From: Undaria pinnatifida
Taxonomy: Eukaryota > Sar > Phaeophyceae > Laminariales > Alariaceae
Reading direction: 5' to 3'
Assembly: GCA_012845835.1 (NCBI GenBank)
Contig: JABAKD010000017.1
Span: 982,001 to 1,046,000, forward strand
DNA: 64,000 nucleotides
The notes under the pieces: model-generated
Databases searched by the model: none
Told to the model about the DNA's origin: nothing
The model's input: the letters and a program-made list of their open reading frames with translations, nothing else
Shown: piece by piece, positions 3,701 to 35,500 of the stretch
Position numbering within the stretch: the first letter of the stretch is position 1
Layout: each line of letters starts with the position of its first letter
Position numbers and translations under genes: made by a program

Positions 3701-6700
3701 GTGGCATTTGCAGCAGCAGCAACAGGAAGCAGGGGCAGTACGGTTTGTAGAAGCGTTGGTTCATTGATACCTGGTATGATACGAGTATGATACGAGTTCA
3801 AGTATTAATTGTGCATATTTTGTCTGGTTTCTCGATAGGTGGTTTTGTGTTTTCCTCAACGCTGTTTTGCACGATGAGAGTGTGTTGACCCGCGCCTTGC
3901 TGCTGCTGCTGCTGGGGCGGAAACATATCGATACCGAACAAGCTTCGCGCTTCGGCGGCCGCAGTTGCCGCAGCAGCAGGCAGTATTAGTAGGATTTGTA
4001 GCAGGGCTCATTGACACCTGGTATGATACGATTATGATACGCGTGTCCACACAGACCCCAGAAGCGCCACCAAGTGGTCCTCCTTCCACTCATGCCAACT
4101 GCCGACACCGAGAGGGCCCATGAAACAAGGAGTTGTTAACCCCGCAGTCACGGAGATGCAGGAGGTGCAACACGCAGCCGAGGCGATGGCTGTGGATGGG
4201 AACATTTTTTACCGCAGCAGCAGGATGAGCAGCAGCAGCCGGGTCAGCAGCAGCAGCAGCAGCCGCACCAAGATCAGCAAATCCACCTTAAACCAGGCCC
4301 GGTAGGGGCTGCACTTGCGGGCTGTCAGCCATCGAGGCCGAGGGTCCACCGGTGAACCCCCCTCACGCTCACGCGCTCGTTTGTTCGCTGCTGCTCAGGC
4401 ACTCGTCGTGGTGTTCCGGGCGAGAACAACACCAGATTCACGTACTAAATATCAGCAATATGCCCCCAAAAACGGTTTTCCAGTTGTAGCGGCGTTAACC
4501 CGAAGTCATCAAACGCCATGGTTGTTTTGCAGTAAAGCGTTTTTGAACACCCAGGTCATGGTTTTCTTCATCGGATCGAACCTTCAGTTTTCTTGCTTTC
4601 AACATTCGGCGGATGTGCGACAACAAAAAGCACTAAGCTCACCACACCACACTCCCACGAAATTTCATGCGCACATCGTGTGTCAGTTTTTAACTCAATC
4701 ATATTCGTAATCCACAGCGCTGTCATAGCTGGCGTATCCTTCAGTTCCCGTGGTAGCGACAGTGCGAGATTTTCTGACCTCAAATCGCTTTTGGGTGATA
4801 CGATGTTTGTGGAGTATTTTATCAAGCCACCACCCTCAGAAGGCAAAAAAACAATGGTTGAAGAACCGTGTGTCTGCTGCCGAAAAAAATATCCCACGCC
4901 AGTTCCAGCAATTTGACGCCAAGCGTGCGTGCGGCTTCAACGGGGACACGGGGAGGAAAGCGTGGAGGGGTCAGCGGGGAAGGGATTGAAGATGGCGTGG
5001 GGTGGAGCACAGGTTGCCGCAAGCTACCCTACGGTGAAATTGCCACCAAACCGATAACATGCGCCAGTCTCGTGTCTCACATCTACAAGCATACAAAAAA
5101 AACACACACATGCATTACCTTACCATGCAAAACCAAACCAAACCAAACCACAAACACCACAAACCAAAACCATGTCAATCCAAACCGACCGGACCAAAAC
5201 AAAACGTACCAAATCACCCCAAATATCGTGTCTCACCTCTAGTTGAATACTCCTCGCCTCCGCCCCCCCCCCCCCCCCCCCCGCTACCCCCGCCACCAGC
5301 CTTGGGGGGCTCATCATGCGGACGGATCCTTACCAAAACATGCCATCACCAAGCCCTGCAAAACCAGAGCGACTAAACAAAGAAGCCAAAAAGAAGTCAA
5401 ACCAAACCACATGACACACACCACACCACACCACACCGAAGCAACCCAAAAACGCATGTACCATATCTCACCTCTAGAGAGGTATCCCTCGCTTCCGCCG
5501 TAGCACCCCTCCCCACACACCCCCTGCCACCGCCAACAGCCTGGGAGGCCTTATCGAACCGGGGGGACCTGACATAATGGGCCATTATCAATCCCTGCAA
5601 AAACAGAGCGTTGCTGTCCGGATCCCTCTCGTCTTCGGGCAGCATTACCACCGGATTGAGAAGCGTAACCTTCACCGTCAAGGGGCGTTTTGGAGGGCCA
5701 TCTTCCTCCCTGCTTCATCATCATTGTTGTCGTTGTCGTCGTCATCGTCAGATTATCGTCAGATTGCGAGATGCATAGCAGTCTACAAAAAACGACAATG
5801 TAACGATCAGTAAACATGCAAACGCTAAAGTGTAACTGGTACAGTACGTATAAGGGGGCATATACTGCACTGGAACAACGACAAGAAAAACAGGCAGACA
5901 TCCATCTTGCTCCATGGCATTCAGCTACCCCCTCCCCCTGGCAATAGAGAGCGTCAAAACGCCCACACATCGCACAGAGTGTATCCCCTTGTAATGTGTG
6001 TGTTATTCACATAAAACTGATGTTTCCACCCATCTACATTCAGCACGAGCAGTGCCCGTGCCGACGCCTCCTCTTTGACGAGCTCTGCTACTGCTGTGGT
6101 CACAAACTACGAGACAGAGATGCGCATTGCAAGAGCAGCAAGGTGATTTGGCCATGCCATGCCAACCGCAACAAACACGCGGGAAAAGTGGAGTCGCCCC
6201 CGCAAGTACTTCCCCACACTAACTTTAAGACTGAAACAATCCACACACATTTCAATATAAAATCCCGGTTTACTACCGTACGTCCTGCTGCACTGCTGTA
6301 CTGCTGGTGTAGTAGTAGTGGGCTGGTCGGTGGGTGGTGGGTGGGTGGCGGGTGCACTACGTGGGTTAACTGTTTCGCGCTGTGGGGGGGTGGGTGGGTG
6401 GGTCGTCCTTACAAGAACTTCCCCTCACTAAGTTCAAGACTAACACATGAACACTAAATTCAATACAAAAATGCCCACACCAATTTCAAGAAGGGTTGGT
6501 TCGTCGGTGGATGGCTTGGTCGGTGGGTGGGTGGGTGGAACGCTCTGCTGCACTGCTGTACTGCTGTTATGTCTTCGTGCGCGTGGGGGATGGGTCGCCC
6601 CAACAAGAACCTCCTTACAACAAACTAACTTTTAAGACTAACACAATCCACACAAATTTCAATCAATATTAGAATCCCGATTTACTACCGGACGTACTGC

Positions 6701-9700: not shown

Positions 9701-12700
9701 AACCCCAACCCCTAAATCCCAATACAGGAAAGGAAACCGAATGACAGAAATACTCATACAGGCTGGGTTTCCTATATAAAAGAGGGTGCGTTCTACTCTA
9801 TTGAATTCGGTACAACCATTCCCGGATGTCTTACATAACCGCAGCCTCTTTTTTTTGTTAGCCTGTCTTTCGTTAGATGTGTGTCATCCCATCGAAGGGA
9901 TGCAGCGGATGTTTCTAACCTCCCAACACGGGAAACTCAACACCTCACCCGAAACATGACTTCGAAAGCATCCGCTATCAATAGCACAATCCGACCAATA
10001 TTGCTATGAGCTAGTCCTAAAACATAATATTCCAAGTACCAGGTATGCTCGCGAAAACTATCAGACTAACCAGTAACCCCTCACTCGAAGAGGTCAACCG
10101 GCGAGAAACGTTTGCCCCGAGCACTGCAACACCTGCCGTGACATGACTCGGGCCCTGTACCGTGCCTGCCTTTCTTGTCGCCTTGTTTCTCACTCATGTC
10201 CGCTACGCTAGAGGTAGCGCCTAAGGCCAACAGATTTCCTGAATGACGGAGCTCCTTAACCCACAACCACCGGAAACGACAATTTGTGTTGCACCCCTAA
10301 GCCATGGATTCGTTGATAGGCTTGCAATTTCATTCTTACTCAAAACCACCAGGGCTTTTTACGGGTCATGACCCGACCCGCGGACCATATTGGGAGGTTA
10401 TCAAAGTCTCGCGGGCGGAGTCGGGTCGGGTCAGGAGGTGTTTGGAATATCATGGGACGGATCGGGTCAGGTAAGGGTCAGGAGGTTTTCAAAACTCGCG
10501 GGTCGGGACGGGTTACCCTGGCTCCACCTGCCTGACCATGAAAAACCTCGAAAATAACTTTTACGATAAGGAATAGAGCTCCACAAGCGACGAGCCTCGG
10601 CAACAAAAAAGCACACCTCTACCGTGGTATGAGTCCATGGTTGAAAAAAATGTACCTGGCGAGACGATGGTTGGAAAAATTGTTCCCGGCGCCAGGTCCA
10701 CGACAGTTACGCTTCCCACCGACGCCTCCAGCCCTCCCCTCCGCCTCGTCGATCTCGAGTATCTCAGCTCCAAAGTGTCGGCCTCCACCGCCAAGCTTCC
10801 CGATTGGCCACCTACCGTAACGCGTTGGGGGAAAGCCGGGGGTAAGGGATGGGCAAGGGGGTCGGGTGGGATGTGAACACACCGGGTTTACATTTTAAAA
10901 GTCGTGCCGGAAATTCTTGAACAGTTTGTGTGTGGATTGTGTAGTTTGATTGCTTTTCGTTTCGGTTTTACCTGGTATTCCGATGCTATTCATTCCTGCA
11001 TGCCTTGCGACCCAGGCTATTCATCATTGGACATGCACCGCAAGGAGTAAACTCGACCACCAACACCACCGCCACCACCACCACCACCATCGACATCAAT
11101 AGCACAGACAACAACACCATCACCACCAACACCAAGACCACCAACACCAAGACACACCAACACCAAGGCCACCAAGACCAAGACCACCAACACCAAGACC
11201 ACCAACACCAACACCACCAACACCAAGACCGCCAACACCAAGACCACCAACAAGACCACCAACACCAAGACCAACACCAAGACCACCAACACCAAGACCA
11301 CCAACACCAAGACCACCAACATCAACACCACCGACACCAACACCACACACATGCTACGGGAAAGGTGCACCATTTTTTCATCTAATACTACCCCTCATTT
11401 GAGGAGCTCTGTACTATTTATAATATACCTCACCCAAAACTGACTTTGAAAAAAACTCAAAGCGCGATCCGATGACAAACATCATGTCGTAAGTTTTACA
11501 ACGCAAAAAAAACGTCAGAAAAAAAAAATCTTCCACTATATTTGGGTTTATGTGTCCCGAAAATCGGAAAATAGTTTTGCCAAAACGTGCAGACGTCACC
11601 ACCAACACCACCGCATCAATTCCTACACCACCATCACCACGACCACCAACACCAACGTGACCACCACCACAATACCAACACCAGCCCCAACACTGCCACC
11701 AACACCAACACCCCAGACACAAAACACCACCGACATCACAACCACCCCAACCACCATCAATCCCCTCCCCCCCACTTCAATTCCAAAAAAACTCACCTGA
11801 AAGCAACGTAGCCCCTTCCTCTCTCTTCTCCTCTCCTCCCCCCCCCGGAGAAGCAAACGCCCCTTGAAACGGCAAAAACACCATCTCCAGCGCGGGGAGT
11901 TCCATCTCCACCTCGATGGCTGTCACAGGACCGTCATCTCCATACCTAAACCTGACCTCACCCGCGGGCCGCACGGAAGTTTCCGAGAAACTTCTGGCGG
12001 CACAGGGGTCGCAGATGAGTACCGATACAGCGTCACCCGCGCCCGCGCCTGCGCCCCCGTGTGTATCCGCAGCGGGGGTGTCGTTAGCGTTGTCGTTGGC
12101 GTCGTCGTTCGTTGCGGAGACCTGTTGCGCAGCCGGTATATCGTAAGGCCTGGAGTTGGCTGACTATCACAAACCGTACGCTATACTATAAGCCGTCGAC
12201 TAGTTGTTAGTTGCCTCGGCATTACAATACCACTCTGTCCGAAATATAAGCAACATTATACTTCAACATGAATGTCCAAGGTTGCTTATATTTCCCTCCA
12301 GAGTGGTACATTACAGTTGTACATTATATTACAGGTAGGCTTAGTGCGGGTTAAAGCGGAGTTACTGAATACCACTCTGTCCAAAATATAAGCAACATTT
12401 TACTTAACACGATTGTCCAAAGGCTGCTTATATTTCCGGAGAGAGTGGTACACTAAAGTTTTACTATATTATATTACAGTGTTTTCATCCTACTGGCGCG
12501 TTTGTAGCTCTATGTTTTTCCGTGTTTACACTTTTGCACTCTGATCTCGTACGATCTGTACGCATATCCACGTGCTGATCTGTAGAGTATGCGCGATTCA
12601 CAGACGCGTCCCAAACCACCTGTATAATCTATGGAGGCCATGATTTGTCGAACGTCATGTGTTGTAATATGCCGCGCGCGGCGGCAAAAATATGTTATCA

Positions 12701-14471
12701 ATAAAACTATTTTCAAGTTCGTTGGTAGGCTTTACGTTTTACTCGCCAATCCCAGCAAAAAAAAAGCCGAGAAGTCCCATGCTACTACTTACGCCTGGCC
12801 CCTTTCGAACTCCACCGACGAACTACTGGGAAGTAGTGTCGGATAGTTTTCCCAGTAGTGAAAGGTGTTAAATGATTACTAAGTCAGTTAATAGTATTCC
12901 GCCACCCAACAAGTCCAGCCAACTTAGCCGTCACGCCCCGCCGACTTAGCCGTCAAGCCCAGACAACTTAGCCGTCAAGCCCTGCCGACTTAGCCGCCAA
13001 GCCCCGCCGACTTAGCCGTCGAGCCCAGCCAACTTAGACGTCAACCCCAGACAACTTAGTCATCAAGTCCAAACAGCTCACGATCCTATCAATAGCTACT
13101 ACCGTTGTATACACCAGATACAACACCTGATTGTGCATGCATTTCCGACAGACCGAGAGGGAGCACCACGCGCACTGATGCCTCGCGACCAGCTCATCAA
13201 ACGAGGAATCGCACGCCGCGCACGTCGTCGCCGCAGCCACACTCTCCTCCTCCTCTCCCCGAGACCCAAACACCGTCCCCGACGAAGACGGCGGCGGAGA
13301 AGGCGGACGAGGACCGCCGACACTTGTCGGACTCTCCTCCCCCTCATCCAATCCACTACCAGGAGAAAGCCGCGGCGATGGAGCACTTCTCCCAAGCCCC
13401 TCACCACCGCCACCACCATCATCTCCATAATCTAGATCGTTGTTGTTGTCGTTCTCAAGGTCGTCGTCGCCCTCGTTCCCTGCGCCGCGGCCAACGCCCA
13501 CGAGAGGAAAATTCTCGGAATTTTCTCCGTGGAAACCCGCGGCGAGGATGTTTTCGCCGATACACCCGGCCAGGGCGGCCCTCGCGTCAGGTGTGAGCGA
13601 CAGCGACATTCGCGGTAGTTCCACCTTCACCCGCATGACCTTCTCCTCCCTCTGCTTGCTGCTGTCAGATTTTTCGCCGGGGCTGTCGCCGCCTCCCGCT
13701 GGTTCTTCGTGTACCGCGTTCAATCCTCCCGGCCCTCCAAGCGGCCCTGCGCTACTGCTTACCTCTCGGCTGCGAGTGTCAGTACCGCTACCGCCTCCGC
13801 TGCTACCACTGCCGCCACCACTGCCGCTACCGCTGCTGTCACCAGTACCGGTGGGACGATAACCTTCGCCCTGCGGCTTCGCATCATTTCCATCACCAAC
13901 ACCATCACCGTCACCACCATCATCACCACCAGCTGCGACAAGCAGAGCACTCTCGAGCGCTTCAAGCGGCAGGGACGCGGCATCAACGCCACCACCACCA
14001 CCACCATCACTCCCTTCACCAGAGGGAGAAACCGTCGTCACGATAACCCTCAAGTCCGCCGGATCTCTGAGAATGGGACGCCATCGGTCCACCCCCCCCC
14101 ACCCCACTGCCTCCTTAGCTTCCGCTCGGGCTCCCTCTTTTCCTTCGCAATTTCCGATGGCATGATCTCCCGTGGTGTGGTCGCTCGAAAATCCGTCGGT
14201 AGTGACCGGAAAGAGCGGTCGGGAGGCTCGACCGCAATCCAAGGAAAACTCTTCCCCAAAGGAAACTTCTGTCCCCGGGGCGTGGAGCACCATGTGGCGA
14301 GACGTGGGGCCTGTCGGGGAGCAGTCCTCGAGTTGTGGAGGGGCGCTCCTGTACGGAGAGGTAACCCAAAGCACGTTGGCGACCGGAATGGGTGGAGGGG
14401 GGGGTCTGCAATTGTGCGAAGGGTTTCTGGGGTCTCGGGAGAGATGCTGTTGGTTCTGCTACTGTTGGTGG

Positions 14472-14511
<40 letters not shown>

Positions 14512-17500
14512 ATCAATAGCGCAGTGGGATACCCGATTTAGGAGCCCCTTGGACCAGGCAAGTGTCACCTACTATCTCCGTACCGCTCTTATCTCATATT
14601 GGGTATTGTATAAGTTCTGGTACAGGCGCAACAGTCATGAAGGATTTCTTGTAGGCGTGGCAAGGTGTGACAAGACGATTACCGCTCTTAAATCAGTTTC
14701 CTCTTATCATGGACGCTCTTAAAATCGGGTAACTCACTGCAGTTGAAAATGTTTGCGGGTTGTTTGGCTGTCACTGCTGTTGGTAGTTGCTGGTGGTTGC
14801 AGGTGTTACTGTTGTAGGTTTCAGCCATTACGTCTGATTTTCAACTTAGCCATCGCCATCACCAACTAAGCAGCCCTTACTCGTACATAGCCTTCCTGCC
14901 TATATCTCGTTAAGTTTCCATCGTCACCCGAACCCGATTGTGCACTTGTAGCCTCCCCGCACATATCTGGTAGAGCATCCGCAGACAATCATACCGTCCG
15001 TACCCGCAGCCTTCCTGCATCTATCTTCGGTCCTGGGTCCCTCGGCAGGTAGCCCCCCAGCCATAGTAGTCTCAATTTAATACCAGGGTACTATGCTCGT
15101 ACGCTCACGGGATCAATCTAGTCCAGCACAACACGAAAAACTCAAAAAGTCTACCGCTCACCCGTCACTTTCTCCGCCTGTCCAAGTGCTGAACCGCAGG
15201 TATTGCGGTCTTACCACCAAGTGTCGCGGATCCGTGAGACACCCTGGTAGCACCACCGTAGGCGCCGGGAGCGTTACGTGAATTTCCGACGAGCTTCGCA
15301 ACCCGGTCTTCATCCTTCCGTCCCAACCAGCAGGCGTGTCGGTGTGTGCGGCGCAATCATCCCCGGTTTGTCCGTCGGTAGCGGTTACGTCTGTAAAAAA
15401 TATTTTCGAATCGCGAAACCAACGGCCAACGTGCGGCAAGATCAAGCAATAAGGGGCCTTGTTCTGGTCAGGTGAGGGCAAGAAGTCATCGTACCGCATA
15501 AGGTCTCCGCTAGAAGGATGCGAAGAGTCGTCGCCAGATCGCACATCGGCAAATGACCGTTTTTGTTTATTATCTCGTGATGTGGCACAATTCGTTCGGT
15601 TGGCGTCGCAACCTCACCGAGCACGCAGTAACATACCATACCATACCGTACCATATCATACCATACCACACCATGCCATACATATTACATACCATACCAT
15701 GCATACCACACTACACCACAGCACAGCACACCACACCACACACCACACCATACGCTAAAGGAAAACAAAAACTGCCCTCGCGAGCTCTCACCGGTATCAG
15801 ACCAGCCCCCCTCGGGCCCCACCCCTGCCTCCGCCTCTCCCTCCGCTTCCGAGGATCCTCCCCACACGGCCGCGCCCAAAACTCCCTCCCACAAGAAATC
15901 AATCCCCTCCAGCCACAGCGGCTGCACATACGCCAAGCTCAACCGCGAAAAGTCTACCGTCAGCACCGAAGACTCCCACGAACATCGCCCACCCGGTGCA
16001 GCCGAGGACGGATCCCGGGCCAACGCTGGTGAACTCCCGGGGATGCCTGTAATATGTCCCCCGGGGACGCTAGCAATGCTTCCCCCGGAGACGCCAGCAA
16101 CGCGTCCCCCCCTCCCTTTCTCCTTGACGTAGCGGAAGGCCAAGGCCACGGGGGAGGGATGGGGGGTCGAGTCGTCATCTGGTGTGCTTCGGGGGGGGGG
16201 TCCAATCAGCGCCGAGTACAGGAGGTTGGATTGCCGTGGGTCGGTGGCCTTGAGGTCATCCAATCGGCCTTGCCAAACTACCGCAGAACCTGGAGAATGA
16301 AGCAAGCAAACGGTGGAAAAAAAAAAAATCAGGCGCGGTTCGTTGTGCGAGAGAGAGGGAGGGGGGGGTTGCGATATATTGTGCTGGTTGAAATGAAACT
16401 TGAAGCAAAATACAGACAACGCCAAACGTCTTCATGGAAGGAAGGAAAGTCGCAACACATCGTCATCACTAACACATCAATACCAGGTACCCAGGCATAG
16501 TTTTTCTTCCCTTATCGACATCACTATTGCTGTCGTCACCGCTATCGCTATCATTTGTATCTTCATCCGATATCCTTACCGGCACCGCCTAACGATGACA
16601 CCTCCTAAAACTCTATAATACCTTTTATCATCATCGATATCGCCATTCGATATCCAAGCCGTTACCCTTACTGTTACCGCCTAACGATTACCCCCCCTAT
16701 GACCCTAAATTAGTATTAATCATCGATATCGTCATCCGATATCTATGCCGCTACCCTTACCAATACCGCCGAACGATTACCCCAATTATAACTCTACATT
16801 ACCATTTATCATCTTCGATATCGTCATTCGATATCTATACCGCTACCCTTACCGATACCGCCTACCAGATAATTACTCCCACTATGACCATATTGCTATT
16901 AATTACCATCGATATCGGCATTCGATATCTACGCCGCTACACTTACCGTTGTCGCCGAACGAATACCCCGCCTGTGACTCAATACTACTATTTACCGTCG
17001 TCGATATCGCCATTCGATATCTATGCCACTACCCATACCGTTACCGCCGTACGATTATGCCTATACTACTATGTATCATAATCGATATCGTTCTTCGATA
17101 TCCGTACCCCTACCCTTACCGTTACCGCCCGACGACGCTTCCACCGTGAGGTCGAGACTCGCCGCGGACATCACCATAAGCTGGCGGCCCTCCCTCTCCT
17201 TGTTGAACGCGATCTGCCAACGGCACATCAAGAGAAAGACATCGAGAAAGTTACAGTGCTTCGAAAACAGCCAACTGCAGAGCGAGCGAGACACACGTCC
17301 AGAACATAAGCTATGTGTGTCTGTTGGTGTCTTCATATCAATAAATACATATATATATGTATATATATTTCTACCCAACGCCATCATCAGCAATCCATTA
17401 TCCGTCCTGATCACTCAACCTAGAGAGATACCTGGCACAAGGTATGTGGTCGCAGGACTGTGAGACAGAGAATCACCACTCTTTTCAAAATAGCCAAAAT

Positions 17501-20500
17501 AATCCCGACTTTCAACCCCGATAACCCGGACCGCGCCCTCCCGGCAAACTTTCGCAGCGCGAAGCTGTAACGAGTAGGCCTGCGAGCCGGCTCACTATAA
17601 CAATAAGAGATTTGAACTCGTCCGGGCCGGTCGGTGTTACTTGCCGGATTACATGCCGGCGCGGTGGCTTCGTTTTGTTTTCATTTAGTTTTCAAGAGAG
17701 TTTCGCTCTCTTTTCAACTTGCGACACTCCCGAGGTTTCAAGCCAACCACCTCCCGAAGGGGAACCTTGTGGCACACTACTAATAACTGTATGTCGGACT
17801 CAGCCCACGGTAGGGGTGCAGGGGAAGGTTCTAAGAAATTTCTGAGCTCCTAACGTGAAGAGCTCCATATATCTCACCCCAAACATGACTTCGAAGACAT
17901 TCGTGACGAAAACAAAATCTACAGGGCTAGTCCTGAAAAATCGTACTCGTAGAGTTTGATCTCCCACCCCACGCATGACTTCCGAGACTTTCGTGGCCAA
18001 AACAAATCTACAGGACTAGTCCTAAAAAATCATACTCGTAAAGTTGTGATGCTAACCGAGAGCTCCTCACATGAGGAGCTCAATATCTCACCCGATACTA
18101 CATGACTTTGAAGGCATTCGTTCGCACAAACCGACCAAGCTTCTGTGCCTTAGTAGTCCTAAAACAATAGGTACTCGTGAAATTACTTGGATCAATGACT
18201 AACCGGTGGTTCCTCACGTAAGGAGCTCAATCGGACACAAACATTATAAGTTAATCCAACAACCGCAACCCCTACCGTGGAGTGACTCGTTGGCGACGTA
18301 TTACTGTACATTACAGTTACTTCCTAAACGGAAAGGGTTGCAGAATTCAGTGTTGTTATACCGGAACTGGCGCCTTTGTAGCTCGCGACGTGCTTCACAC
18401 TGAAAAAGACCAAAGCCAATTGGCTGACTTTACCACCAAACAAAATAAAAACACATCAATCCCGGCCAGCCTCCCACCCCCCTTACACACAGGCATGCAT
18501 ACCTCCAGCCCTTGTCGAGCCCCAACCCGGATTTCTGTCCAAGCAGACAGCAGCGGTTTCTTCATCGGGCGATCGACTCTCCGCGCTTCCTGCGCGGCTT
18601 GCGTGTCCTCCGCCCCGTCGTCTAGCCCCCCCCACCTGGGAGAACTACCGCTGCCTCTAGCCCCCCCAACACAATCGGCATTTGCATCCGATTTGCTCCT
18701 TGTCGCTGCCATCACTGCCGCCGCTGCCGCCGCCTCGCCCGTCTCTCCTCCCGAGGCGGCCGTAAGCGCGGCGTGGATTCTCCAGAGTGCCACCACGGTG
18801 CGGGGGTTCCAGTTGACAGCGACGGGGGCCTCGATTCCGACGGAGACGGCGGCGTTGTTTTCAGCAAAGTTGGCGCCGCCACCGGAAGTTGCGGAAGAAC
18901 CAGGACCACCGCCAGTAGCACGACCACCAGCGCCGCACGCAGAAGCAGCTGCATCAGAGGCAGCAGAACCAGAAGCAACAGTACCACCACCACCACCACC
19001 ACCAGAAGCTGCAGAAGCAGACGCATGAGCAGACGCAGCACCCGTACAAGTAGAAACATCAGCAGCTGCACAAGTAGAAACATCAGACGCAGCGCCAGCA
19101 CCAGAATATGTCACCTTCCGGTACGACACCAGGACCAAAGGAACGGAAGAGGAAGGTAAACCCTGGGCGGCACCATCAATGCCGTCGTCGTTGGTCGCTT
19201 GCTCAGGCGGTCGTCGTTGTCGCCGCGCCGTGGCGTCGTCATTTCCATCACTACCACCACTAGAAGTAGCAGCAGCGTTATCGGAAGGCGAGCAGGGATC
19301 GTCTCCACCAGCGGAGGCAATTTCATTCCGACCTTTCCGGCCTTCCCCTTCTTCCCCTTCCTCCTCCTCCTCATCTTCCAGCCATTTTCGGCATATGGAG
19401 GCGTCATCCTCGGAGGGCCACCGGGAGACGTGCGGGGGGTGCCGCGCGGGTCGCGATGGCAGTGGCGGTTGCGCGTCGATGACAAGAAGGTCCCGGAAAG
19501 CCGCACGGCAAGGGTCTCGCTGCAGAATATCGATCACCCTTACGGCCGATATCGATGCCGTCGCAGTCTCCACCTTCTCCCCGCCGCTGACATCGTTTTC
19601 TTCCAAAACACCCTCGTCATTACGGCGGCCACCGTTACCACTGCCGCCAACGCTTCCGCTATTACTTTTGCAATCACCGCCGCTGCTGTCACCACCACCA
19701 CCACCACTACCATTCAACCCGCCACTGCCGCTAACTCGAGAGTAGCCCAAATCCCACGCGCCGACAACAACCTTAACTACGGGCTGAGCCGGGGAGCCGA
19801 AGGCTGGATTAACACAAGCCGACGGTCCTGCCACGTGCGTGTTCGCCGCCACTCCTTCCCACTCCCCCCTAGCCGCGCTCGAACCTCCAGGTGCGCGCGG
19901 TGACGACGCTCGTTGCGAGGAACGTTCTGATAACCGTTCCGGGACACGTTCAGATATACGTTCCCGGTCTTCGTCTCCCATTACACGCTCACGCCCGAAA
20001 CCGACACCACCTCCACCACCGCTTCCTTCTGAAGGAAGAAAAGATGGCGGCGCAAGCACGAGTGCGTCGCGGAAGTACTGCTGAGGCGAGACAAAGTGCG
20101 TCCCAGAGTCGTCCTCCAACCGCACGCTCAGCCCCGCGCCTGACGCCCGCAAGTCCAGGTCTACAATGGCAGGCGGAGAAATACCCTCGGAAGCTTTCTG
20201 AGAAGAACGCAGAGTTGGCGGCGGCGATCGCGGCTGCTGAGGCGGGGCCGGCGGCCCTTCATGAGACCGCCCTTGTCCTTCCCCCGACACTTTCGCGTGC
20301 CCTCGCCCACGGCTTTGCCCCCACCCTCCCGCTGCCCCCGCGCCGCCTAGTGTCGCAGTTGCCGTGGGAGCGGACAGAAGCACCCGCGCCACCGTGGCAA
20401 CGTCGGAGGGCCGTAGCACCCCCCTTAGGGTCGAGCAACTGTCCACAAACACCCGTCGACGCCCGCGAACACCACCAACACCGCTAACGCCGCACGGCGC

Positions 20501-23500
20501 CAGGTTTCCAGTGGGCAAAGCAGAGGCGTCGTCCGCAGCAGGGACAGGCGGCGGTGGGGTGAAAGCGTAACTGACCGACCCGGCGATCGGTTCCACCACC
20601 GTGCGCCAGCCCGCGTTCCCTGGCGGGTCGCGTTCACCACGGTGGCGCGAAGATACATAGGAAACCGCGCTCTTGTCCCCTTCTCGGGGCGCCAGTGGTG
20701 GCGGCTGCAGCGATTGCAACGGATGCGATGGGGGCGACTTGACCGAAGTCACCGTGGCCATCGATTCTGCCACCGCAGCTTTTACAGCAGCCGCCTCCGA
20801 GTCTTCTCCATCACTGCGACAGCGCCACCGCCGCCGCTCCTGCTCCCGCTCACAATCCCGCCCCCGTGACCGCTCCCACGATGCAGCCGGTGCGCGTCCG
20901 GGGTACGGCCGCCGCGAAAAGGCCTCCATTTTCGAAACCCTGCAGAAGACGAGGGACGTCATTGGAGACTCGCCATCTTCTTCTAGCCGCATTTCTTCCG
21001 CAGCTGGAGGGCTAACGCTGCGGTAGAGGCCCCTCCTGCTTTACCGACAATCGACGCCGTGGTGGCGGCGGCGGCGGCGGCGGCGGCAGCGCGGCATACG
21101 GCAACGTTGGTTGAGGTGCGACATCGACACATCCTACGCTAGGGGCAGCACGTTTCGGACAAAAGTATTTCTGGCGGACAGGGCTCCCTAAATAATTGAG
21201 GGGCCGCCCGATATCGTTAGAGCCACTTTTTACAGAGTGCCATAGTAACCAGGACCCACGATACACACAAAAACCTATATCCCACAGCTTCTACCAATCA
21301 TATTTGGTCCTGATTATGGTCCTGGTTACTATGTTCCCCCGAAATATCGTGTGGCATAATCGTGTTCGCTACGTACGCAGTACCGACGCAGGCGCAGACC
21401 ATTGGCTTGTTAATCGGGTTACACTTTTCACTTTTCTCAAAAGTCAGTGATTAAGTGGTGAGAGACAGAGAACCCCTGAAGAGCGGGGCGTCAAAAACTT
21501 CAAACCAAGGCTAGGGGGGGGGGGGGGGGGGGCATGCTAAGGGAGGCATGTTAAGGGGGGCGTACTCATTTGTTTCTCGCCTTAGTCATTTGACCATTGA
21601 ACACGCATCCCTTTCGAGACGGAGCATCGTTCCTACTCCTAATTGAGACACCTCTAACATGTGGGCGCTCATTGCGCTTCTTCCATATACTACATAGAAA
21701 CTGTTTGCTTATCCTATCCCCGTCCTGTTTCGCCCTCTACAGCAGTGGGGGGGTGGGTGGGGATACCCCCATTTGTACCATCGGGTTTTCACCACTCGCA
21801 CGAATGACTTATTCCTATTAATACTTCTCGGGCGAAAATATCTCCGTGGAATTATTTTTGGCGCAGCGCAGCTTACCATTCCAGCGAAAATAATGAAGGA
21901 ACTACTTTTGGCGCAGCGTAGCTTATCATTCCATTGCGGATTCACACCGCAAAATTAGAGCGGCACGAATGACCAAGGCTGAGATAGGGGGGGGGGGGGG
22001 GGGGGGAAGGGTACCCGTTTCTTCACAACCGGGTTCGAGCCACTCACCCGAGTGACTCTGTACCTCACTGAAAAAAACATTTTGGATATTAGTTTGGCGC
22101 AGCGTACCTAACCATTCCATCAAGGTTTCATGCCGCTACAAAGACGGCACGAAATCTTGAGACGACAAAGAAACACGTGGGTCACTCGCGAGAGTGGCCC
22201 CTAGCCATTACAAGAAGGGGAACTACAAAGTGATGCCCCAACCGCACCCTTGGCCGAAAGCTCAAGGTCGCAAAAGGAATAGGGCCGTCACTCGCGCGAG
22301 TGACCTCGAGCCACTGCAAAACGAAGGTCCCAAATGTGACCCTAGCCTTCATGTTCAGGTGCATGCCATCCGTAACACGCGGCTGTTGTTGGGGTGCGGC
22401 ATGCAGTGCTGTTGGCGGACGGCATGCGGTGCCGTTCGTCGAGCCATGGCACAAAGTATCGCTGGGGTGAGGCATACGGTATTGTATGGGGTGCGTCATG
22501 CGGTGTTGTCGAGGGGAAGACACACGGCACTGTTGGGGTGTACCACATAGTGCTATTGAACCGCGCCATTCAGTGTTGTTCGGGTGCGTCAGAGGGTTTC
22601 ATTGGTGGGACCATACCATACTGTGTTCTTGGGTGCCCCGTACCGTGTTGTTGGGGGGAGACGCACGGCGTTGGGGTATGCCACACAGCAGTTTCGTGGG
22701 GATAGGAGATACAGCTGTGTCGGGGTGTGCCTTCCGGTCGAGTTGGTTGGACCACGCAATACGGTGCTGTTGGAGTGCCCGCCATACAGTGTTGATGGGG
22801 GGGGGGGGGGGCACACGATGCCGCTAGTCACACGTGGCACAACGTATCGCTGAAATGCACGCACACGCACAAGTGCTTCAAGCGCGCGCAGGCCGATACA
22901 ATGTAAGGCGACACGATACAAGGCGACACAGCAAACAGCAGCAGTGCTACGTTCCTGCTGTCGCGTGCATATGGGGCGTGGCTCTGAGAGCCAAGCAACT
23001 GCAGGTCCACCAGGCAGCACCGTGGCGGGGTATACCGTGTCGTCCGGAAGAAGATAGCTAACGTTATCGTATACGGGCCATGTGCAACGTATGGCTGTCT
23101 TTGGGGCGCGACCTGCGGCCACACACTAGAAAACGGCGATACGCTCACCCTCACAGTATGAGAAATAGCAACAAAACCAAACCGGCACCGCTGTAGTGCA
23201 GGAAACAGCAGTGGCTCACGAGAACCACCTCGACCAGACGCAACAAACCTCAACCCATCGAAAACCTTACGTGAAATCCAACAACAAAACCTTGCTCACG
23301 TGGATGAAAAAGCACCCGCGCCAAGCTCCACCATCCAATGGCCGTCCAGGAACAAGCCGCTCGTCATCCTCATTGACAGGTCCGCCCGCACCACCACCGC
23401 TTCGCCATCCCCTCCGCCCCCTCCGCCACCGCCTCCCTCAAACCCCTCCCTCCCGATCCTCCTAACCCTAGCTCCCCCAAAATCCTCGCTTCTTCCCCTC

Positions 23501-26500: not shown

Positions 26501-29500
26501 GTTTGTGGGGACAAACGTCTTGAACTTAGTGTAGGAAAAACATTTTCCGCAGCTCTTAAGTCACCTACCTCCCGGAGCAGAGAGAAGTCGCCGTCATCAA
26601 GAGTCAGGTCCAGCCGTACGAAATCATGACTAAACAAAAAATCTACAGCTGTCGTTGGGGCTCGCACAGCCGCAGCCGGACATTGGTAACCGTGGTTATC
26701 TTGCGCGCCGACAAACTTGCGCGCCTTGGTTGGAAAATTGGGAAAGGTAACTCTCTCGAGCCTTCAGTCGGCACCACTTAAGTCACCAACTACAGTATTT
26801 ATAAGTCGGACTAATAGTCGTTTCCGGGAGGTGCCGACTATCCGACTTACTGGGTTTCCATACTTGTAGGAAGGATGCTTAATGCGGGATGCATTTTTAT
26901 TTTGTTGGGCCGCGGGGGCCTCGGCCGAGGGGGAACTAATTTAGCCCGCTTTGCTCGCCCGACTCAAGTCGGCAAGTCGGCGGGCCATCCGGCTTCGCCT
27001 GCAGACTTGCAGGCTAAAGTCAGCTAGTAATAGTTGGCGAACGCCATCTACCGACTAGTCAGTAGTCGTGAAACTCTGCCGACTCACAGCTTCATAAATC
27101 TCCGTCGGCGGTCGTACACTCGGGTTCAGACGTCTCGAGGGGGGTCCCTACTTACTGGCGCGGTAAAAAATAAGAAAAATTAAAACCTCACCTCCCAGAG
27201 AAGAGAGAAGTCGGCGTCGTGAAGGGTGAGGTCCAGCCCCGGCGCGCGTCCCACCACAACGTAGTTGCTCTCCACGCCGTCCCTGTCTGTCGCTCCGATA
27301 CGCGGGTCCACGGGCCACCACGCCTAGAGGGTCGCCCGCCAAATCGTAGATGGGGTGTTCCCAGAGGGGGAACGCAAGCGAGGGTAAGACATTATTTCCT
27401 CTGTGCCACAAGTAAAGGAGATGATTGCGGGACGATTATAGCACATAACAGGAAACCATAATCGATGGTTATTGGAGTTGGGGAAGTGAAAAAGGTCGTG
27501 AATCTATGATTACGATTAACGAGAACGATAGCACGATGAGCTCGAGCGGCAGGATCACTATGATTTACACGCACAAACCCGTCTGCGATTATTTTCCCGT
27601 TATTATTGCTGAAGTTCTTCATGTTTTTGAGGTTGAACCTCCGCCTGGCATTGACCAATCAGAAGCGGCGAATGGGTATTATGACCGGATCAACGAGAGG
27701 AAACTGCAACAGGAGCTATGGACCAATACAAGCAAACTAGCACGCGAATATTGACCAATGGGAGCACACCGTCACACGGAAAATCGAACAACGGGAGTCA
27801 AAACCGCCACATGAAAGATCGACCAATGGGAGCAGACCGCCATACGAAATACGGACCAATGGGACCAAACCGCCACACAACAAATGGACCATTGGTGAAG
27901 CAAACGGCCGAACGAAAGATGGAGCAATGCGACCAAACGGCCGCACGACAGATGGACCGATGGGAGCAAACTACCACACGAAATAACGAGCAGTGGGAGC
28001 AAAAACCGCCTCACAAAAAACAGACCAATGGCGACAAAACCGTCGCCCGATCATATGGACAAACCGCCGCACGAAACATGGACCAGCTGGAGCAAACCGT
28101 CACACCGACGATAAACCAACGGGAGCACACCGTCACGTGAATTGTAGACCAGTGGGAGCAAACTACAAAAAAAAAAAAAATCAATGAGAACAAGGTTACT
28201 AAGGCACGCTCACCTCCACCGTCAAATCATCAGGCGACGAATAAGAAACTTGTGACGCATTCCGTAGCAGGCTCGATCCCATGGTCACACTGGACGCCAC
28301 CGCTGCGCTCGGAACGGTTCCAGGAACGGTACCTCGACCGTGTTGGGTGGCAGCGTGGCGAGAGCGGGACGAGCGGATGTCCAATCCCTCAAGCCCTACG
28401 GACCACACCTGACACAGGTCTGGCTTGAGGGTTGAGGCGTCGCCCATTTTGCGCTCTTCGTACCTGCTCGGGTATGTCCAAGACGTATAAAAAGGAGATT
28501 AAGAGGGTTTGCGGGCGAGCACGCACGGGGGCACGCGCATGGCAAGGGGGGGGGGGGGGGAGAGGGGTCAGTTGTTTTTGGGGACTTTGACGAAAAAAGG
28601 ATACCGACCACGCGCGAGTGTTATGTTACAGCCAATGGTCAAGTTCGTGTTTTGTATACCAGGTAGCATGTACTTCAATTTGCTACCAGGTAAAAAATAA
28701 TTATAACCTGGAAGAACGTACACAAAACCAAATATATTTACACACGCGTTCCATTTTCACACGAAACGAAGCCGTCGCCACACCGAGTTGCATGGCATCG
28801 AGTCGTGCCGCATCAGGCTTTACCGCATCAAGCTTCACCGCATCAGGCTTCACAGCATCGAGTTTCACCGCACTGGGTTGCACCGCATCAAGATTCACCG
28901 CATCGAGTTGCACAGCATCAAGGTGCACCGCATCGAGTTACACCGCACCTCGTCTTGACGATGAGGCGTTTTCCATCGAGGGCAATCCACCCCTCCCCGT
29001 CGTGGCCAGCTGGCAGCTTGACCTCCGGATGGGTAGCCTCGATAGAAATGTGCTTCTTTCTCAAAACCTGGGATTGGCTAAAAACATCCCCATCCGCATT
29101 GGGCCCATTCTGGTACACAAAGCAGGCAGAGCACAAAAACTGGGTGTCAGCTCGAAACACCAAATGTAGGAGTGATTTTATAGTCAATTCAGGGGGGAAA
29201 ACAAAGCAAAAAAAAGTGGCCCTGCCCACATAACGAATCCAGCCTGAGGCAGCATCCCAGTTTCAAATTACCAGAGCACCAGGAAAAATATAGCAGCAGG
29301 TGCACCACGTACGGTACTGCACTACCATATCCAGTAGCAGACAGGAGCTTACACAAAACAAGCATCGGCCGTACTGTGCCGTATTAGTTTGTCATATCCA
29401 GTGGCAGACAGGAGCAAACACGAAACGCATCGGTCGTTTCAGCCCCAAGCGCCAAATAACACGCCGCAAACCTTCCGCGGCGAAACGATCACCCACGGAC

Positions 29501-32500
29501 ACCAAGGCCCGGCGCCGAGCGCAAGCGTGTTTGTGATTTTCAACCTCTGTTGGGTTGGAAAAAACGAAAAAAAAATTGAAACCGACGAATATCATAACTG
29601 CAGTATTGAAACCGACGATATCTTAACCCGAGGCCAAGTAACCCACGAAAAACATAGGTTCCAAAACAAAAAAAATGGTAGAAAAACATTCTTAAACCAT
29701 TTTTTTCTGTTTTTTTCTTCTGTTTTTTTGCGGGTTGCGTTGGCCTTGGATGACGTTCGACAATTTCAATGCTATTATTAAGTGTTTTCCTACCCGACTC
29801 CTACCCAACCAGAGTTGGAAAATAAATCGCGAAACCCTAATACATCAAGCGCACTACTATATTGATTGTAAAATATGTATAGCATGCCTGGTATGCTACA
29901 ACAAACAGGAGCAAGCAACTCGGCCGTTACTGGCCCAAGCGACACATAACACGCCGCACACCTTCGGCGACGAAACGAGCACCCACGGACACCAAGGCCC
30001 GTCGCCGAGCACACCGTTCATGACATAGTCCAGCGCTTCCAGCCACGTCTGGTTCAGGTAATTCAACACGCAGGATTGGAGCACTAGGCTCACGCTCAGA
30101 GGGAACTCCACCTCTCGCGAGTCCTGCGTGGCAGGCGATACGGAGGGGCAGGGGGGGAAGGGACGGAGGGAGGGACGGGCGGAGGGGGTGAGTGGGCGGT
30201 CAGCCTTGCGTTAAAGGTGGCATGATGAGCTTAGCAAAGATTTCTTGTATTCGCGTGTACAAAATATCATACGATTAATTGTACATGTAGTATGGCACCA
30301 GAAACCTCGTATATTATACAAGGTAGGTTGAAAAAATATATATATATAAATAATACCGGCCGCGAGTATTCGGTCGGACGTAAACACAGCAAGACGCGCC
30401 TGGCAGGCTAGACCCGCGCATACACCTGGGGGCGTAGCTGGATTCAAAAATATATACATCCTTGCAAACGTTGGGAGGGGCACGACAAAAAGTACGACGC
30501 ACCTGCACGAGGGTAAGGCGCACTTCCTGGGCGGGTAATGAGGCGTTACTGCTCGGAGCCACGAGGGAGCGCCATCGCGAGGTCTTGGTGCCGAGGTCTG
30601 TGAGGGAGGCAAACGTCAGAGATGCCTTGTAGGTCGACACGGTACCGGTGGATCGATAGCTCTTGGAGATGGACACCTGCTCGTTCATTCGCGCGGTAGC
30701 GGGAGGGTGGATGTGGTCGACCGGATTGTTGGTTGGTTGGTTTGTTGGTAGGTTGGTAGGTTGATTGATACGTTGATTGGTTGATTGGTTGGTTGGTTGG
30801 TTGGTTTGGTTGGTTGGTTGGCAGGCTGGTTGGTGGTAGGCTTGTGGGTTACAAACTCGCAACGAAGGTTCGTCTACTGGCTGGTTGGTTAGTTTTGATT
30901 TGTCGATCGAGGAATCGACGGGTGGAATGGTTGGCTGGTTGGTTGATAAATCTTGATACAACAAAAAGATCGGTGGGAGGGAGGGTGGGTGGGTGGGTGG
31001 GCTATTTGGGTGGTTGGATGGTTGGTTTTTGAATGCGAGAGTCGAGCGTCTCGAGACGCTTCGAGGGTTGGGTTTTAATGTCATATCCATTGACCATTGG
31101 CGCGTGGATTAAACACGTTACCGCCACTTTCCATGCCCTCGCGCGGCACGGCATAGCAAGAAACTTAGCATCCCCCCTCTCTCTCCCTCTCCCTTTCCCG
31201 GCCCCCCACCAACAATAACAAAAACAACACACACAATGTTCGCACAGCCTCACCGAAGACTCGCCGGCCTCCAGCAATAGAAGCCTCCTCCCGTGAACTT
31301 CCTTGTTGAGCCACAGCGACAGCCGTTTCACTTCTACCACCACGACACCGCTCTCCCGCGCCACATCGTCTTCTACCACACACCCTTCCGCCGTTTCGGG
31401 GGGCGCACAAGGCCCACCCCCGACCACATAAAACCCACCCACAGCAGAATCACCAGGACCTACTCTTGCAGGAGGCGACCCCTCCACGCCACCCCCCCCA
31501 CCTCCCCCATTCCCCCGTCCATCCCCACCCCCAATTCCACCGCTGTCGTGAGTGCGCCCGTCTGAGCCTCTCCCAGAGATCCGACCGTTACCATACATGC
31601 CGTACGCAAAAATGGACAGCGCCGCTACGGTTTCCGGGTTCCAGTTAGCCCACACGCCTCCCACGGTAATAGTAGTCCTCGATCTTAACCCGTCGCCGCC
31701 GCCACCACCACCATCACCACCATCCCCGCCGCCGCCTCCGGCACCATTCTCCGAAAAAGCACGCGTTATATTCAAGGCGTTCTCCGCTAACGGTGTCCAC
31801 CCCGCTAAGGGCGTTGGCACTTCCGACACCGCGGTAGCTCCTGGTAGACATGCCCCGCCCCGGCCGGGGAGGTTTCCTGTCCCACTCGGCCGCAATAAAG
31901 AAGGAGGGGCGGTGGAAGATAGGAGGTAGGAAAACGGGTCTCCGCCTTGCTGGAACATGTCCTTAACTCGGAAAGAGACGGCCGTCAGGGAAAACCTAGA
32001 GGACATGGTGGTTGGCTGCTGACTACCACCACCCCCACCACCAACACGCGTCCTACGAGTAGCGCGTGCAGCAGCAGAGGCAGCTTTTTGCATATTTTGG
32101 GTGTCTAGCTCTATTCGATCAGTGTCACCGCCACCACCGCCGCCGATATCGCGGTATTCCATTCCCAGTCCATACACCTCAACAAGCACCAGGGCACCCT
32201 CGCCTAGGTCCCCTTCGTTTCCGGTAGGAATGTCTGCGGCACACTTTCCGTCGGTAATGTCACCGGCAGGTACCGGAGGGGTCCCACCGGGGACACGATC
32301 ATCCCCATCCGCGACAAAATCCGGCGTATATCCAGCAAGGAGTTCCGCGGGAAGCACGGCGTTTTTATCCGGAGATACAGCCCCTTCCGCTTCCGCCGCC
32401 GCTTCTGCCGCCGAAACAGACCCCTCACTGTTATCGCCGCTCCTATCGTGCACCAACAAAACGCAGATGACGGGTGCCGATACCCTCACCTCCACCGCCA

Positions 32501-35500
32501 ACCCTACCGGCTGTTCCACGTAGTAACTATCCTCGTCCTCTTCCTCGTCCTCCCCCCTCTCTTCTCCGTTGCAGCCCTCCTCTCTCCCCCCCCGGGCGCC
32601 CCCTCCTTCCACCTCCTCCTCCACAACACAGACGCGGTGCGAACTAGACCCTGAGCTAGACCGCCTTCTCCGATGGGAACGCCCCCCTGGGCAACCGTTG
32701 CCACCGCCACTATTTCGGCGAACCGGTCGGGGAGAACCTCGGCCCCCCTCCCAGTCGTCGTCAGAGTCGCAGAGGCCTTCTCCTGGAATTTCGGTTACCG
32801 GCTCCAATTCGGAGGAGAGGACGGTTGGGATGCTGCGGCGCCCGCGCACCGGGCATGTTTGCGGCGCGTCTGTGTCCTCCCACCCGGCGCTACCGGCGTA
32901 GCTCCTGAGGCTGGCGGCATGCGGGTGCGGTGAGTGAGTAAAGTCTCCGTAAAGAAGGAAGGTACCATCTGCTGCTGCTGTAGTAGGTGCTGCTGCTTCT
33001 GTTGTTGTGGATGTTGCTGCGGCTTGTGTTCCTGCTGCTACTGCTGTGCTGCTGGTGTCGCTCTTTATACCCGATGGCATCGGCGGTTTGGACGTGGACG
33101 AGGCGTTCTCGTCTGGCGAAACTGACGAGCGCGACATCTCTGCGAAGTTAAACAAACAGTGTGAAGGCGGCGCGACGACGAGGTTGGGTAGGGAGGCGTG
33201 AGCTGAGTTAGTACAACTTCAAGAAATAATTGGACGTTAACGGTTGAGTGAAAGGGGTGAGCACAATCGACTTGACCCTATTGGGGAACCACCTTCTCCA
33301 CATTAATTTACAAACATACAAGGGCTCCACATGGGTGCCGGCACCTTCTCCACTGTATCATATAAGCATACAAGGGCTTCACATGGGTGCCGGCACCTCC
33401 ACTTTATTATACAAACATACAAGGGTTCCACATGGGTGTCGGCACCTTCTCCACTTTAGTATACAAACATACAAGGGCTCCACATGGGTGCCGGCACCCA
33501 TGCTTCGGATAGCCTAAGTTATCATATTTTTGTTTCATGTGTTGATAAATGTTGTTTACCCGCTTTCAGGATTGAGTATATGCCAAACGTGTGTAAGTTC
33601 TTTGCATGGCAAGTGTTGAGGCAAGACTAACGCGAAGACAACGTCATGTGTTGCGGGATGACTGGCCTAGGCATACGGCAAGGGGGGGGGCTTTTAGGGC
33701 AACCCTGTATATTGTTATTTCATGTGCCACACGACAACGGTGCAGCGTTACAATAGTGTCAACAAGAAAAAAAAATGCAACCTTTTGGACCTTTCGGGCT
33801 TTTCGGTTTCAGAATGAATACAGATCGCCTGCATGGGATTAATTGTATGTTGTTTGCTACCCAAAACCAAGAAAATATGTGAAAGTTCGTTTGTTGATAA
33901 AGGTACGGAGCCAGTGGCGCCAGCGGCCTGTACACGGCGGAGTCGTTCTACGGTCGACCCCTCAACTTTTTTTCCACAAAATCGCCGGTCTTGAAAAAAC
34001 AGCGCCCGACCGTATATCCTGAAATACGGTGCCCCTTTTCGCCCCGACGTCATCGTCCGATAGACCTTTGCAAACAAGAAAATTTCTGAGGATACTTTGG
34101 TCATAGCACCCTTCCTCGTGTAGGGCAGCCATAACACGTTCGCTAAAGAAAATCACCGGTTTTCGGGGTGGGCTAGTGTAAAATCAGTCGTCGGTGAAAG
34201 GAGAGGGGTGCCCCCCCTGCCGCAGCCGTGGTCGAATGCAATATTACCAAGGCTCAAACTACGCACTACTGTGTAAACGTTCCACCAAGAGTTACACGTG
34301 TGTGCTTGCAACGCCCGACTTAAGTAATTGGAATCGGACTCATGCAAGCATTTTTCCGGGGCTCTTTTCTGCCAAATCAGTTTATTTTGTCAGTTTCTTG
34401 CATATTGATCAGTTCAATTGCAGCCGTACGAACGAGCATGATTTACTAGTACCGTTCACAGCTGATAAGAAACCGAAACACCCACCATCCAGGGTGGGTT
34501 TCTTGTGTGAAGAGAGGGTGCGTTCTACACTCAACTTCAGTGTAACGGCTCCCGGACAACAAAGAAACATAGTTCTACCGAGTTTTTGGCAAGCGCATGT
34601 CTACTGCTGCGCAGCGACGCGCGCGAATGCGGGCGCGTGTGAAGAACGTCCGGCTCGTCCTAGCCTACTCGGCACAACTTGGCACCACCCAAATGGCACG
34701 TAGTACCGCAGTAGTCAGCATAACCTAGTCGATGCTTAGTGCCAAAGAGATAAGTCATCCCGTATAGGGTAGCTCGGACTGCGCTCGGATTCAACGGGAA
34801 CATCAACCAAAAAGTACCGTTTCGGTCTTCTAGTGTCGATCCAACGTTGGCATAATTAGAATAACGGGACTGCCAAACAAAATGTGCCGTTTCGGTCTTC
34901 TAAATGTCCGCCCGACGCCGGCGCAGTCAAGAAGGACGGACGCACGCACCAAGGACGCCACTAAATAACCTACACTCACTACATTGTGCCCCCTTCCTAT
35001 CTCTGAGGTTGCACCTACGAGTCACGCTTTCCCAGCTACCTTTCGCGTCCTCGTGCTTCCAAGAATGGGTTGTGCCTACTGCTGCCAAGCACAGCGATGA
35101 GCAGTGCCTGCTGTGTGCTGCTGTGCGGGCTGTGTGCCCGCCAGCCCTCTATGGCTTTTGTGTCGTCGTGCCTGGAGAGCGTCGAGGTAAAGCTCGGTAC
35201 AACATGTAGACCAACGGACAGGCCGCTGGAGATCGATGTAAGTGTTTCGGCAGACATTCGGCCCATATCGTTCGCTAACTTCGCATTTTCTGCGCGGTTT
35301 TGGGCCAATCCTTCGACGTTCGGCAACATTCAACTACAAAAAAAAACGACTCTTGTGTTATGCGTATTTCCCGCGATCCCGACAGATGTTTCCTCATGGT
35401 TCAGAATTCCTTGAAACAGAGACATCTCCACAAGACCCACTCAAACGAGCGAAAGCTCAGTTTGGGGTCGCGGCACTCGGCGGCGGCCAGTGACCTCGAG

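Follow-up and report, generated by a model that had tools for sequence, protein, structure and literature searches.

A candidate degenerate FYVE-type zinc finger within a VPS13 gene of the brown alga Undaria pinnatifida

Can a zinc finger be built into the body of a bridge-like lipid-transfer protein, and what would it do there? VPS13 proteins are long lipid conduits, and their choice of a pair of membranes has so far been explained mostly by adaptor binding at the C-terminal part. The question is raised by a 64,000-nucleotide stretch of Undaria pinnatifida DNA (assembly GCA_012845835.1, contig JABAKD010000017.1, positions 982,001 to 1,046,000; referred to here as the window, with positions counted from its first letter), in which a FYVE-like finger at 13.2-12.0 kb shares the minus strand with a VPS13 gene. 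We prefer the explanation, to which we assign a probability of roughly one half, that a degenerate FYVE finger lies in a linker between beta-groove segments of this VPS13 protein and acts as an internal docking module.

At the level of sequence the finger motif is genuine. Its first six cysteines certainly lie in one frame and within a single exon (13222-13139), spaced C-x2-C-x12-C-x2-C-x4-C-x2-C, with codons that start at 13222, 13213, 13174, 13165, 13150 and 13141, and no stop codon interrupts the frame between 14458 and 13034. A phase-0 join of 13127 to 12121 would supply a fourth pair from the next exon (codons starting at 12013 and 12004) and complete the ladder as C-x2-C-x12-C-x2-C-x4-C-x2-C-x40-C-x2-C, with a loop of 40 residues separating cysteines 6 and 7; this fourth pair is plausible, not proven. 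The elements of the finger are as follows.

13127..14458, minus strand: open frame of the upstream exon, with groove-like segments (by eye), a low-complexity linker and the finger; the 5' end of the exon is approximate
13139..13222, minus strand: cysteines 1 to 6, the predicted zinc ligands of the FYVE-like finger, from cysteine spacing and the Pfam FYVE match
12122..13126, minus strand: candidate intron of 1005 bases, GT-AG, phase 0, with a minisatellite and two inverted-repeat elements
12002..12013, minus strand: putative last cysteine pair (C-D-P-C), carried by the next exon and adding about 2 bits to the Pfam FYVE score
11797..12121, minus strand: downstream exon, with an Asn/Asp/Gly/Ala loop, the cysteine pair and then a beta-strand-like segment (by eye)

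Is this a FYVE finger? The joined peptide of 142 residues scores 32.8 bits against Pfam FYVE (PF01363; E 7.4e-8), above the curated cut-off of 27.8, which upholds the FYVE-class assignment made in an earlier, sequence-only reading of the window. The unspliced finger of 88 residues passes the same cut-off without splicing (31.3 bits), and the whole read-through frame of 474 residues falls just short of it (27.6 bits). Among Pfam families, FYVE fits the natural peptide best, the others lying below their own cut-offs (FYVE_2, PF02318, 19.9 bits against 27.2; C1, 18.8; a RING-like family, 12.4); when the peptide is trimmed and its loop shortened, FYVE_2 rises above its cut-off (29.4 bits) and FYVE drops below (24.7 bits). 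A PDB sequence search places the FYVE domain of FGD5 first (E 0.081), followed by TRIM32 (0.21), melanophilin (0.36) and EEA1 (0.4), none of them significant alone. With a hidden Markov model (HMM) built from six PDB FYVE sequences the finger frame ranks first among 1636 six-frame open reading frames (ORFs) at 16.5 bits, compared with 12.0 for the next frame and 11.9 for the best in 10 simulated windows. A relaxed six-cysteine pattern (C-x2-C-x8..20-C-x2-C-x3..6-C-x2-C) occurs twice in the six frames of the window, the other copy being a low-complexity poly-Cys stretch on the plus strand, and in none of 60 windows simulated with a second-order Markov model; the six-cysteine pattern is thus not expected by chance. 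No relative was found in a scan of viral contigs. A scan of genome contigs returned seven actinobacterial loci whose matches span query residues 73-126 only and leave the first six cysteines uncovered, and these were taken as chance.

The Pfam match is carried by the six cysteines, and the last pair is weakly supported. When junction variants are compared with one common left end, the joined form scores 33.3 bits against FYVE, the unspliced form 31.3 and the joined form with its last two cysteines replaced 31.5; an alternative in-frame junction that retains the pair scores 30.9, and an improbable junction that lacks it scores 34.7, above the join adopted here. The donor after 13127 reads CAG followed by GTGTTG, and the acceptor CAACAG precedes 12121. 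How often would such a pair arise by accident? C-x2-C follows within 50 residues at 57 of 644 phase-0 open acceptor sites, and cysteine frequency alone gives 0.5 to 4%, so that the overall chance is 0.5 to 9% depending on the null. The eight-cysteine pattern and the exon join of the sequence-only reading fare unevenly: its coordinates and the first six cysteines hold up, and the last pair and the join that delivers it gain only about 2 bits in Pfam. A self-trained, splice-aware dynamic-programming gene model yielded 271 fragments with the finger exon broken, and was discarded.

The candidate intron has features of its own. Two inverted-repeat elements of about 80 bp, resembling miniature inverted-repeat transposable elements and with ends TACCACTCT...AGAGTGGTA, lie at 12228-12450 on the minus strand, and their 26-base end sequence (up to 3 mismatches) is found only at those two places in the window. 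A minisatellite of 22/66-bp units at 12910-13071 begins about 55 bases past the donor.

What would the finger bind? Excerpts of PMC7431699 and PMC5368057 give the motifs of FYVE fingers that bind phosphatidylinositol 3-phosphate (PI3P) as WxxD, R(R/K)HHCR (R+HHC+xCG) and RVC. Here no W..D is present among the 60 residues preceding the finger; the basic motif reads ARHQCA, as the sequence-only reading had it (A-R-H-Q-C), with one Arg and one His remaining; RVC reads LIC; and the position of the membrane-insertion loop is acidic, DELV compared with SVTV in EEA1. Because the three PI3P motifs are absent or degenerate and the loop is acidic, endosomal lipid binding by the finger appears unlikely, and the earlier proposal that it anchors the bridge at endosomes or senses PI3P is not supported. 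A docking role towards protein is favoured by these degraded motifs together with a 12-residue segment that resembles melanophilin CLECSLFVCKSC and the FYVE_2 match of the trimmed peptide.

A working PI3P-binding finger that tethers the flank of the bridge to endosomes or senses them there, as an in-chain analogue of Ypt35, the yeast Vps13 adaptor whose PX domain binds PI3P, is nonetheless the alternative that fares best, and we regard it as unlikely. It draws on the standing of FYVE as best Pfam family for the natural peptide and on the retained Arg and His of the basic motif; in the accessible parts of the respective papers, yeast Vps13 itself binds PI3P (PMC5393151) and Ypt35 serves Vps13 as an adaptor on the vacuole (PMC8689521). 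The lost motifs do not exclude PI3P binding either, since RUFY4 lacks the histidine pair yet associates with PI3P-rich membranes according to an excerpt of PMC7431699. The absence of WxxD, ARHQCA for R(R/K)HHCR, LIC for RVC and the acidic DELV are what argue against it, and the same paper describes a Rubicon FYVE-like domain reported not to bind PI3P.

Is the surrounding gene a VPS13? By profile match the gene on the strand of the finger is a VPS13 gene, with its N-terminus in the window: concatenated exon cores from 54.2-36 kb, picked by eye, score 231 bits against VPS13_N (E 3e-68, cut-off 80), in agreement with the sequence-only reading. Three single frames match the same profile at 53.9-53.4 kb (E 9.9e-9), 47.3-47.0 kb (E 2.4e-9) and 44.9-44.1 kb (E 9.9e-14), at 34 to 50.5 bits and each under the cut-off, and the exon cores at 41-36 kb alone match profile positions 623-723 (E 3.4e-7, 28.9 bits). 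An unverified human VPS13A sequence matches the N-terminal exons only. No VAB, ATG_C or C-terminal PH domain was found in the frames scanned; the left edge of the window apparently truncates the gene ahead of its C-terminal part. The VPS13 and groove features, in the order of transcription, are listed here.

54144..54248, minus strand: predicted start of the VPS13 gene; the 3' boundary is approximate
53527..53661, minus strand: VPS13_N exon
47060..47242, minus strand: VPS13_N exon
44127..44945, minus strand: open frame with a VPS13_N exon, profile positions 284-428 (E 9.9e-14; 50.5 bits where the cut-off is 80)
37145..38535, minus strand: two neighbouring frames with a groove motif (APLLVLPDD ...), from VPS13_N positions 623-723 (41-36 kb cores) and motif profiles
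28921..33218, minus strand: first candidate repeat of groove motifs, from motif pairs and held-out profiles
15161..21040, minus strand: second candidate repeat of groove motifs, upstream of the finger exon, from motif pairs and held-out profiles
5400..5714, minus strand: candidate groove motif downstream of the finger, from held-out profiles (first among the untrained ORFs of 1397)

A CAT-repeat stretch at 40174-40440, within the VPS13 span, has open minus-strand frames, Met-rich in one and Asp-rich in another.

Does the finger lie between groove exons? Pfam support for VPS13 extends to about 37 kb, which leaves some 24 kb up to the finger. The segments at 33-29 kb and 21-15 kb, on the same strand, share three motifs in one order: WNPxTVxAL (about 31 and 18.7 kb), a second motif of 13 residues (30 and 16 kb) and a strand pair with P-x2-LP (29 and 15 kb). 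Shuffled sequences do as well as two of the matched pairs in 2 of 5000 cases (score 48) and in 0 of 5000 (score 66); the weak third pair, at 24, is equalled by 371 of 5000, and mismatched pairs between the two sets score 13 to 20. The 30/16-kb pair is also recovered by blastp (E 0.005). Downstream of the finger, the 5.7-kb copy scores 37 with the 15-kb copy (15 of 5000 shuffles as good). The P-x2-LP copies of the unverified VPS13A sequence match those at 37 kb (46; 0 of 2000), 5.7 kb (37; 3 of 2000) and 15 kb (33; 5 of 2000), and miss the one at 29 kb (best 19; 303 of 2000).

The segments used for these pairs were first picked by eye, and a fairer test is the ranking of 1397 six-frame ORFs with profiles trained with one exon left out. 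A profile from the 37-, 29- and 15-kb copies has the 5.7-kb frame as its top untrained ORF (E 0.46, or 0.024 once two copies from the VPS13A sequence join the training set); for one from the 37-, 29- and 5.7-kb copies plus VPS13A, the top untrained ORF is the 15.6-kb frame (E 0.17). Retrieval is reciprocal, with the partner ranked highest, for the 30- and 16-kb copies (E 0.0017 and 0.0004) and, weakly, for the 31- and 18-kb copies (E 0.28 and 0.24). VPS13A copies alone rank the 37-kb frame highest (E 0.12), just ahead of an unrelated frame (0.14). These E-values are modest overall. Repeat order and held-out profiles together place the finger (13.2-12.0 kb) most probably between groove-type exons to its left and right, a placement that is supported but not proven. 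The gene seems to hold a multi-exon groove repeat in two or more copies (33-29 and 21-15 kb, minus strand), which suggests that the bridge was lengthened by internal duplication.

The immediate neighbours of the finger are a low-complexity linker upstream and, by eye, the next strands downstream. The module-closing element and the strand of a following module that the sequence-only reading had set beside the finger are by-eye readings too; the internal repeats and held-out profiles speak for groove-type flanks, and a direct Pfam match to these elements is lacking. A PDB sequence search gave no match around the finger, and a single-sequence AlphaFold model of the upstream frame (mean predicted local distance difference test score 38.5, no strands) is uninformative.

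Several results count against our explanation. The six-sequence HMM ranks the adopted junction 246th of 333 variants (18.2 bits compared with 21.1 unspliced), a low position that is probably due to the long loop; the donor and acceptor appear weak by eye; and the join is based mainly on frame and cysteine spacing. The natural joined peptide fails FYVE_2. Pfam gives no match in the flank pieces scanned on both sides of the finger, and three pieces at 12-8 kb, just downstream of it, show no clear match to the expected VPS13A stretches, two of them matching another VPS13A stretch instead. The 37-kb copy scores 28 with its 15-kb counterpart but 24 and 26 with two unrelated motifs, and a collinear chain of the unverified VPS13A sequence beyond the N-terminus scores 11, compared with 0-51 in 30 shuffles.

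Could the finger then be part of a separate minus-strand gene, or of a frame with incomplete splicing, to the left of a shorter VPS13 gene? The end of Pfam support at about 37 kb, the silence of the flank pieces in Pfam and the negative collinear-chain test would all fit this, and we judge it quite unlikely given that the frames at 37, 30, 29, 16, 15 and 5.7 kb are linked by repeat order and held-out profiles, and that none of 10 plus-strand frames scanned at 15.5-36.3 kb reached any Pfam cut-off. Least probable is that the finger is degenerating, or has only a structural role, in a disordered linker and binds no partner. Such a remnant would suit the degenerate motif, low-complexity surroundings, 40-residue loop and weakly supported last pair, but not the apparent retention of all eight cysteine positions where the remaining 480 residues of the two finger frames contain only five other cysteines, a pattern that suggests selection on the zinc ligands.

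Elsewhere in the window, pentamer arrays are present at 9236-9595 (CCAAC x72) and 37485-37556 (GGGTT x14). A dispersed repeat family with mutually similar open frames on the minus strand (38.8-38.5, 26.0-25.7 and 2.4-1.9 kb; blastp E-values to 4e-29) is perhaps a transposable-element remnant. No RNA family reached its gathering threshold in the whole window.

How might an internal docking module work? The degenerate FYVE-class finger would sit in a flexible linker that joins two beta-groove segments of the VPS13 bridge, and would fold around two zinc ions through four cysteine pairs, the last coming from the next exon across a long acidic and Gly/Ala-rich loop. It would project from the side of the lipid-conducting rod, like the UBA, lectin and PH modules of other VPS13 proteins. 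With the PI3P pocket largely lost, a protein partner is the most likely ligand; small GTPases or tethers are the partners of the Rab-effector FYVE_2 fingers and of Rubicon, and a tether or, as a guess, a small GTPase could dock here and help to select the organelles that are bridged. One continuous transcript, zinc binding and protein docking are all inferred.

If this is true, a zinc finger placed in the rod would act as an address label of another kind, with a partner open to direct testing. A more doubtful extension of the same idea is a whole stramenopile lineage of VPS13 proteins with an internal FYVE-derived finger switched from PI3P to protein (e.g. a Rab); through such a side-docking site among the groove repeats, the choice of target organelle would not depend on the adaptor-binding C-terminal part.

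Known systems resemble this finger only in part. It shares with the FYVE fingers of EEA1, Vps27, Hrs and FGD5 the cysteine ladder and spacing through cysteine 6 and a Pfam score above the cut-off, and it differs from them in its lost or degenerate PI3P motifs, the 40-residue loop between cysteines 6 and 7, and its probable place within a lipid-transfer rod. The FYVE_2 fingers of the Rab effectors melanophilin and Slp4 are flanked by Rab-binding helices; the segment resembling CLECSLFVCKSC is common ground, and the FYVE_2 cut-off is passed only in trimmed, loop-shortened form, unlike the natural peptide (19.9 bits compared with 27.2). The Rubicon domain, compared by description only, is also a FYVE-related finger, in a different protein, and is reported not to bind PI3P (PMC7431699, in excerpt). 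Among VPS13 proteins, the available portion of Levine 2022 (PMC7613979) lists inserts of UBA and lectin type in VPS13D, WWE in VPS13A/C, PH, C2, beta-tripod and beta-helix in plant VPS13M, and discoidin-like domains. The likeness to these lies in a folded, non-groove module in a loop between groove segments; the difference is that no FYVE or zinc domain is named there, both words having 0 occurrences in the text of that review. The same review records individual VPS13 proteins of protists with lengths of 7192 to 13455 residues. A FYVE is likewise not named in the available part of PMC10993292, nor a FYVE finger in VPS13 described in those of PMC5466422, PMC10341546 and PMC5393151, nor in the other open-licence PubMed Central listings, abstracts and excerpts covered; a search there aimed at oomycete or stramenopile VPS13 with a FYVE returned no paper. 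Module inserts between groove segments are thus a known theme, and a FYVE finger among them appears, by the literature, to be new.

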